Assembly: GCA_021299385.1 (NCBI GenBank)
Contig: JAJTGZ010000024.1
Span: forward strand, 1 to 32,488
Length of the DNA: 32,488 nucleotides
Direction: 5' to 3'
From: Phycisphaeraceae bacterium
GTDB taxonomy: Bacteria; Planctomycetota; Phycisphaerae; Phycisphaerales; UBA1924
Every line of letters starts with the position of its first letter. The first letter of the stretch is position 1. The notes under the pieces are model-generated. The model did no database searches. It worked only from the letters and a program-made list of their open reading frames with translations, and was not told where the DNA came from. Both the position numbers and the translations under genes were made by a program. Shown piece by piece: positions 17,187 through 18,680 of this stretch.

Positions 17187-18680
17187 ATGACCTGGCTCCG
17201 CGTCATTGATGCACTCTCAGCCCCTGTTGACACCCGTGTGGTCGTGAAGGGTTGGGTGCGCACCCGCCGCGACAGCAAGGCCGACGGTGGCCTCTCGTTC
17301 GTCGCGCTCCACGACGGCACCTGCTTTGAGCCAATCCAACTGGTCATCAAGGGGGACATCCCCAACTTCACCACCGAGGTCGGGCGCCTGACAACCGGCT
17401 GCGCCATCGAGGCCGAGGGGGTGATCGTCAAGAACCCCAAAGGTGGCAACGAGGTCGCCGTGCAACTGGCCAGCGGTGGCTCGATCAAAGTCGTCGGGTG
17501 GGTCGAGCACCCGGACACCTACCCGATCCAGCCCAAGCCGCACACCTTTGAGTACCTCCGCGAGCAGGCCCACCTGCGTGTGCGGACGAACACCTTCGGC
17601 GCCGTCGCACGCGTCCGCCACTGCCTGGCCATGGCGATCCACCGCTTCTTCCACGAGCGCGGCTTTTACTACGTCCACACCCCCATCATCACCGCCAGCG
17701 ACTGCGAAGGCGCTGGCCAGATGTTCCGCGTCAGCACGCTCGATGCACTCGGCAGGGCCGAGGGTTCAGGGCCGAGGGCCGAGGCACAGTCAGCTGCGGC
17801 ACCAGGTTCTCCACTCGGCCCTCGGCCCACAAACCTCGGCCCTGATTTTTCCCAAGACTTCTTCGGCAAAGAAGCCCACCTGACCGTCAGCGGGCAACTC
17901 AACGTCGAGACCTACTGCATGGCCCTGAGCCGGGTCTACACCTTCGGCCCGACGTTCCGTGCCGAGAACAGCAACACCAGCCGGCACCTGGCCGAGTTCT
18001 GGATGATCGAGCCTGAGATCGCCTTTGCCAACCTCGCCGACGACGCCCAACTGGCCGAGCAACTGCTTCGCTACCTCTTCACAACCCTCCTGGCCGAGCG
18101 CGCCGACGACATGCACTTCTTCGCCCAGCGCATCGAAAAAACCGCCATCGACCGCCTCACGCACATCATCGAAAAACCCTTCCTCCGCCTCACCTACACC
18201 GAAGGTGTCAAAGTCCTTGAAGACGCCATCAAAGCCGGCAAAGAGTTCGAGTACCCCGTCAAGTGGGGCATCGACCTCCAGAGCGAGCACGAGCGCTTCC
18301 TGACCGAGGAACACTTCAAGCAGCCGGTGATCCTGACCAACTACCCAAAGGGGATCAAGGCCTTCTACATGCGCCTGGACGACAACTGCGAGCCAGACCG
18401 CCAGACCGTCAGCGCCATGGACATCCTCGTGCCGGGCATCGGCGAAATCATCGGCGGCAGCCAACGCGAGGAACGCCTCGACAAACTCGACGCGCGACTG
18501 GCCGAGATGGGCCTGCACCAGCCCGACTACTGGTGGTACCGCGACCTCCGCAAATACGGCACCGTCCCCCACGCCGGCTTCGGCCTTGGCTTCGAACGAC
18601 TCATCCAGTTCGCCACCGGCATGCAAAACATCCGCGACGTCATCCCCTTCCCTCGGGCGCCCAAGCAGGCAGATTTCTAA
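17187..18680 (+). CDS. asnS: Asparaginyl-tRNA synthetase with in-frame palindromic insertion
   Basis: This class IIb synthetase charges tRNA-Asn. ATG 17187 has TTGGAGA at 17174-17180. An N-terminal OB fold ([20 protein letters not shown]) reads the anticodon. The catalytic core has [12 protein letters not shown], the motif-2 region [34 protein letters not shown] and motif 3 [15 protein letters not shown]. These are AsnRS rather than AspRS signatures. The 497-aa length exceeds the usual roughly 465 because residues about 189-220, between STLD and [11 protein letters not shown], are an Ala/Pro/Gly-rich insert encoded by a palindromic repeat (17753-17844). The equivalent loop in E. coli is about 11 residues, and the frame is kept. 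The long frame upstream of 17187 is repeat and antisense sequence. Confidence 0.95.
17753..17844. repeat. Palindromic element inserted in frame within asnS
   Basis: The left arm (17753-17783) and the reverse complement of the right arm (17814-17844) match at 28 of 31 positions, around a 30-nt centre. Both arms are built from AGGGCCGAGG units. The right arm closely resembles an intergenic stretch at 22607-22640, so this is a dispersed element. Confidence 0.85.

Follow-up and report, generated by a model that had tools for sequence, protein, structure and literature searches.

A dispersed palindromic repeat inserted in frame in asnS of a Phycisphaeraceae bacterium, and unrelated palindromes in the same loop of its relatives

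Introduction

Palindromes that code for protein have been described chiefly from intracellular Rickettsiales. Rickettsia palindromic elements (RPEs) and similar palindromes in Wolbachia are described as repeats of about 100–150 bp that belong to several families and lie both between genes and in frame within conserved genes; the gmk product with an RPE insert has been reported to be active (PMC2229807, PMC10969869). In Geobacter metallireducens, 49 copies of a GC-rich element made of four tandem heptanucleotides (GGGACCG) occur within and between genes, next to sites of four tandem octanucleotides that are mostly paired on opposite strands, and these elements were interpreted as regulatory RNA or as binding sites of regulators (PMC2700814). 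TAACTGA heptamers form multi-copy, mostly intergenic tandem repeats in Beggiatoaceae and some cyanobacteria (PMC4679880). REPs and BIMEs tagged with GTAG/CGTC are short palindromes, often near gene ends and sometimes in ORFs, which are described from Planctomycetes as well (PMC3733652). We found no report of in-frame palindromic repeats in planctomycete genes in the open-access papers searched.

Here we describe such a repeat in asnS of a Phycisphaeraceae bacterium. The window, that is, the whole stretch of DNA analysed, comprises positions 1–32,488 of contig JAJTGZ010000024.1 (assembly GCA_021299385.1; genome G000 in the text).

Results

The asnS frame and the 92-bp element

Gene asnS, for an asparagine--tRNA ligase (AsnRS) of 497 aa, extends over 17187–18680 (forward strand) as an open frame that is intact, as an earlier note on this DNA had claimed; its product matches NCBIfam PRK03932 with 633.6 bits (cut-off 414) and TIGR00457 with 612 bits, above the cut-off, and contains the Pfam domains tRNA-synt_2 and OB domain. 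The palindrome which the same note had reported, with 31-bp arms (28 matches) and a 30-nt centre, was found exactly at 17753–17844, so that a palindromic repeat inserted in frame inside asnS is confirmed. This 92-bp inverted repeat encodes residues 189–220. The left arm (17753–17783, forward strand) has four heptamers in the order core-variant-core-core, namely AGGGCCG, AGGGTTC, AGGGCCG and AGGGCCG, followed by AG; the centre (17784–17813, 30 nt) is non-heptameric; the right arm (17814–17844, reverse strand) again has four heptamers, the second unit being a variant of its own, AGGTTTG. The two 31-nt arms are complementary at 28 of 31 positions (90%) and are thus terminal inverted repeats of the kind asked of a MITE. 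The palindrome score of the loop is 23.5, the best of 300 dinucleotide shuffles scoring 10.5 and none reaching the observed value. For the 121 nt around the element a fold of -68 kcal/mol was predicted (z -6.05; 0/200 shuffles equally low).

The loop is 38 aa long, compared with 17 aa as the commonest length among relatives. Because 92 is not a multiple of three and the frame is kept, the insertion would have cost the former loop about 29 nt. PDB 6pqh has a short loop at this position, AsnRS residues 188–211 standing opposite three residues only. In an AlphaFold2 model (mean pLDDT 79.2) the insert falls within a stretch below 50 (residues 166–214); as low pLDDT extends to the conserved neighbours 223–235 and 258–271, the model suggests only weakly that the insert may be a disordered loop segment.

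Other repeats adjoin the gene. Directly 3' of the asnS stop, at 18697–18762, there is another inverted repeat, unrelated to the first, whose 28-nt arms are 93% complementary and separated by 10 nt. Directly 5' of the start, at 17041–17171, a 33-nt unit that has inverted symmetry within it (CCCCCACACTCCGTGTGGGG) is present in four copies arranged head to tail.

Copies across the genome

A search of the same genome (2.63 Mb in 111 contigs, 95% complete) for copies of the element, as the earlier note had proposed, gave 49 matches at E <= 1. They represent 23 distinct places; this count merges four duplicate rows, includes the window copy and leaves aside four matches at E 0.28–0.96 (C56, C106, C92, C63). 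By ORF calls from a GC-frame heuristic on stop-to-stop frames, as distinct from a gene finder, three places are in frame inside genes, 18 are at a gene 3' end and two are elsewhere. Measured from an ORF's last sense codon, with the stop codon included, those 18 are at distances of -11 to +54 nt, a post-stop zone that under the same rule holds 4.3% of 4,552 window positions, with 80% falling inside ORFs. Of the 18 post-stop copies, 15 have the G-rich strand in sense orientation (two-sided binomial 0.0075), a bias noticed post hoc.

The three in-frame hosts are asnS, DNA topoisomerase VI subunit B (top6B; 606.3 bits, cut-off 274) and DNA polymerase III alpha subunit (dnaE; best model TIGR00594, 658.2 bits, cut-off 434.35), and in the latter two the copy likewise lies in an open frame. 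The top6B copy (C72:2136–2229, 76% identity) is the other complete one, is read in a different frame from that of asnS, and is the only strongly palindromic one among 30 top6B loci; in dnaE there is only one arm, in opposite orientation. The left arm follows the general pattern AGGGCCG-AGGGNNN-AGGGCCG-AGGGCCG-AG in this genome, AGGGGTG being the commonest second unit among those listed. The relative of one arm that had been noted at 22607–22640 is weak when taken alone (82%, E 0.0061), and its standing as a degenerate solo right arm (reverse strand) is helped by the right-arm layout and by its place 10 nt from the stop codon of ORF 22651–23682 (reverse strand).

Some further features of the genome were observed. 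The C-terminal motif DDIIVFLN.FFAGC precedes several post-stop copies (L008, L012, L013, L016, L020, L028) and, as read from the DNA, is also present in ORF 20295–22361 of the window. A second heptamer array of about five units (GGCAATA/GGCAATG/GGCAATC; 15770–15815) indicates more than one heptamer family in this genome. Positions 20026–20255 and 22647–22876 (230 nt) are 76% identical, and the 3' part of ORF 22651–23682 seems to be duplicated, in diverged form, upstream of ORF 18817–20019. A 56-nt repeat with CCTCCCCCGAGGGGAGG symmetry is present in three copies (82–89%) at 11346–11401, 31307–31362 and 32121–32176.

The asnS loop among relatives

Matches to asnS were found in 155 genomes, species representatives of which many are fragmented; with some partial or less informative matches left out, the loop set comprises 152 genes; they come from 151 genomes, of which 147 belong to the family of the window. 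The insert is not common to all: the loop after STLD has at most 19 aa in 96 genes, 21 aa in one and at least 24 aa in 55. The commonest length is 17 aa, in 76 of the 152 and in 45 of the 52 parsed loci of a separate, similarity-fetched set (80 loci).

Strong loop palindromes were detected in nine of the 152 genes (each 0/300 shuffles, z 7.4–18.7), the tenth-best being clearly weaker (2/300, z 3.7). Seven different repeat units build these nine loops: AGGGCCG-type heptamers in G000, GGGGACT heptamers in G139 and G142, GGGCACT heptamers in G097, CAGTGACG octamers in G032, AGGTGTC octamers in G103 and G106, CCGGTTCTCCGAACCGG in G072 and CCGGCTCTCCGAGCCGG in G005. The core-variant-core-core layout of the arms is common to G000, G139/G142 and G097 despite their different units. 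As a rule the inserts come after the conserved ..N.PR and before (V/I)DF; in G000 the PR stretch is missing as well. Since palindromes recur in independent assemblies, an assembly artefact is unlikely; the assembly of G103, in 4 contigs, carries palindromes in both asnS and dnaE, which differ from each other.

Could a variable loop simply have diverged, with a palindrome arising by chance? Its length does vary, most of the 55 loops of at least 24 aa are without a significant palindrome, and a non-palindromic 43-aa form ending in MP.WTYGQVD is common to nine asnS genes of five genera (L030, L031, L034, L035, L139, L141, L142, L143, L160). Yet shuffling never reproduced the palindromes of the nine loops that have them (0/300), and the same DNA recurs elsewhere in the carrier genomes, so that the multi-copy searches largely refute ordinary divergence, which we regard as extremely improbable.

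Further long loops (L168, L165, L236, L149, L154, L170, L192) seem to contain one arm, or a short hairpin, of some other repeat; candidate units are, for example, CACAGGCGTCCCGCCTGTG and GTGCCTTC octamers, with palindromes that are not significant. Outside the loop, a scan of 6,749 windows of asnS gave only four weak palindromes (L186, L260, L245, L191), which were rejected as chance-like, their arms being 79–109 nt apart.

Independence and empty sites

A tree was calculated from 111 asnS cores with the loop removed. On these 111 rows the presence of a strong palindrome changes eight times, the tree being a quick one with SH-aLRT values only and 35 of 108 inner branches starred. Filled and shorter loops occur side by side: 49 aa in L189 and 17 aa in four loci of the same genus, 52 aa in L033 and 18 aa in the adjoining L156, 49 aa in L159 and 26 aa in the adjoining L162. 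The rows nearest to the asnS of G000 have loops of 17–18 aa (G068, G069) or the 43-aa non-palindromic loop (G002, G003, G089). No target-site duplication is visible in the empty-site alignments, where the host loop is partly replaced; the insertion in G000 combines net insertion with loss, and a clean transposition footprint is therefore missing. Judged from these sequences, at least seven sequence-distinct repeats would have entered the same asnS loop in different lineages, which we consider very probable as part of the whole explanation given below.

The insert might have been retained because it is useful, as an mRNA hairpin or a loop extension that tunes the expression or activity of AsnRS. 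The very stable predicted hairpin, the repeated filling of one site and the position of intergenic copies where 3'-end hairpins act would suit such a role. Against it speak the filling of the site by unrelated sequences in different frames and orientations and the fact that most relatives manage without an insert, and we hold retention for a function to be unlikely.

Genome-specific repeat families

Five of the seven units, those of G000, G032, G139/G142, G103/G106 and G072, served as queries, and all five are multi-copy in the carrier genome. The element of G000 has matches at E <= 1e-5 in six of 163 genomes of the family (G000, G001, G088, G089, G061, G033). Three of these (G089, G033, G061) have the 43-aa non-repeat loop in asnS though they hold the element, so the presence of a repeat in a genome does not predict insertion. 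The G032 element (CAGTGACG) has 45 matches in G032, 28 in G110, 10 in G097, 8 in G113 and 3 in G111, and none in G000, G139, G103, G072 and G069. The GGGGACT query, in which the arms were exact and the centre approximate, has 34 matches in G139, 14 in G097, 7 in G143 and 4 in G142; 8 of the 12 genomes have none. For the AGGTGTC element there are 11 matches in G106, 3 in G103 and none in seven other genomes searched; for the G072 hairpin (CCGGTTCTCCGAACCGG), 14 in G072, 1 in G116 and none in seven other genomes, including G073 and G075 of the same genus.

As the arms consist of tandem 7- or 8-mers, and the number of units varies in the arrays of G032 and G103, the arrays could have grown by slippage in place, with a palindrome made by local inversion or template switch and the dispersal due to convergent slippage; slippage has been put forward for heptanucleotide repeats in the description of the TAACTGA heptamers (PMC4679880). 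Such an origin does not sit well with left and right arms that have their own variant units, recurring elsewhere, with a right half that recurs together with the 3' part of the non-repeat centre (C1:13744–13785, 42 nt, 93%), or with genes that in each genome carry the unit of that genome. We think slippage in place quite improbable, and the copies have probably moved as units.

Other invaded genes

In G032 and G139 the places that were fetched, a part of all matches, were mapped. Six of 29 mapped intervals of G032 are inside five genes, asnS, an RluA-family pseudouridine synthase (rluD-like), mqnC, purL and carB; six of 21 mapped places of G139 are in ORFs, asnS, dnaE, mqnE (two arms), valS and L327. 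The last was rejected as a spurious ORF without a family match; in the other genes, family or domain matches flank the insert on both sides. Among 30 dnaE loci, of which 27 could be parsed at the loop, that of G103 shows a strong palindrome of octamers (z 15.6, 0/200 shuffles) near the site of the single arm in G000, and this repeat has 17 more places in G103. The dnaE palindromes of G125 (z 4.5, 1/200) and G093 (z 2.8) are weaker and marginal, respectively.

Stop codons and persistence in genes

Stops in all three frames are present in 19 of the 24 non-coding octamer arrays (at least three units) of G032. Each of the gene-sense arrays found there (asnS, purL and carB) has one changed unit (AGAAAC, AGTCAC and AGTCAC, respectively) at a position where the unchanged unit would give an in-frame TGA; these two variants account for 3 of 147 units in the non-coding arrays. 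The same change, CAG TCA, is seen in the asnS of G111 (L147), and in G000 the asnS copy has GGT TCA in its second unit in place of the GGG TGA that the common unit would give. As far as these sequences go, the stop-free variants in genic arrays fit survivorship of stop-free copies. Survival without a stop or a frameshift in a surface loop would explain where genic copies remain, and the inserted segment of AsnRS is probably translated and harmless.

Y1 transposases as candidate movers

Mobility of the REP/RAYT type, in which Y1 transposases (PF01797) move palindromes, is a possible source of the copies that we rate as doubtful. Matches to PF01797 above the cut-off are present in nine of nine carrier genomes searched. 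An array of period 7 or 8 was detected in the central 2 kb of 7 of 22 Y1 loci and 1 of 20 controls (p 0.047), and at a stricter threshold in 6 and 0 loci (p 0.022), the thresholds and the central window having been chosen after a first scan and after three suggestive loci. That first, stricter scan of whole loci gave 3 and 3 arrays, no difference. Two transposase copies in G110, L409 (2501–3351) and L410 (1987–2839), share an octamer array on their 5' side but are not independent of each other, and L419, one of the seven, has a poor array. Arrays sit behind genes generally, so that an array behind a transposase is little evidence, and the REP tags GTAG and CGTC and their complements are absent from the 92 bp.

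Discussion

The interpretation of the asnS insert as a dispersed repeat element read in frame, given in the earlier note, is supported: the genome has further copies and the insert is lacking in many relatives, contrary to both refuting outcomes that the note had named. Two results go beyond it: the same loop is filled by unrelated palindromes in other lineages, and most copies lie just behind stop codons. We propose, with considerable confidence, that the 92 bp represent a single member of a multi-copy, non-autonomous family of palindromic repeats in G000 and that the single in-frame copy in the AsnRS loop occupies a recurrently used, tolerant site. Most copies would settle immediately 3' of a stop codon, with the G-rich strand usually in sense. 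Insertion of one copy at the tip of the AsnRS loop would have replaced about 29 nt without loss of frame, and this copy would be translated as an extra and probably disordered loop segment. Copies in genes would persist only if they are stop-free, neutral to the frame and placed in a tolerant loop, and the asnS loop would be such a site, entered by different repeats in different lineages. A Y1 transposase can be named as a candidate mover only.

The unrelated heptamer and octamer palindromes across the family might further belong to one continuing class of protein-invading repeats, each genome spawning or receiving its own family and loops such as those of asnS and dnaE serving as recurrent landing sites; we offer this wider reading tentatively, as a possibility that is not the likelier one. 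If it were true, essential proteins would repeatedly gain new segments from repeat DNA, and the arm layout, kept while the unit sequence changes, might point to a single machinery that recognises layout and not sequence.

The present results extend protein-coding palindromes to another phylum, with at least seven unrelated repeats filling one and the same loop of an essential enzyme. Recurrent filling, together with empty alleles in close relatives, amounts to a natural replicate experiment on repeat DNA becoming protein, and makes two questions testable: which agent moves the repeats, and whether the segments gained are neutral. For annotation, odd inserts of 20–50 aa in conserved enzymes may be repeat DNA.

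The described systems differ in how near they come. A single arm of the G000 element is not itself a hairpin, unlike a REP or BIME. TAACTGA heptamers are described as non-palindromic; they repeat directly, lie for the most part upstream of start codons and contain stops in every forward frame. The Geobacter elements share with those found here the four tandem heptanucleotides, the multi-copy state and the occurrence within and between genes; the passages that describe them mention neither preservation of frame in conserved proteins nor recurrent use of a single site (PMC2700814). With the RPEs and Wolbachia palindromes, as described, the repeat shares dispersal as a palindrome both between genes and in frame in conserved genes (23 places, 3 in frame). 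It differs from RPEs in arms of tandem heptamers or octamers and, as far as these are described, in lineage, in genomes of about 2–5 Mb, in families that change from genome to genome and in one gene loop that is filled repeatedly. The likeness to RPEs drawn in the earlier note stands for the mode of action, with in-frame copies in housekeeping genes, and not for membership; homology is not expected, and the arms are heptamer or octamer arrays. On our analysis the best reading is that these repeats would act like RPEs built with heptamer or octamer arms: as far as the published descriptions go, the RPEs and Wolbachia palindromes are the closest in behaviour and the Geobacter metallireducens sites the closest in anatomy.
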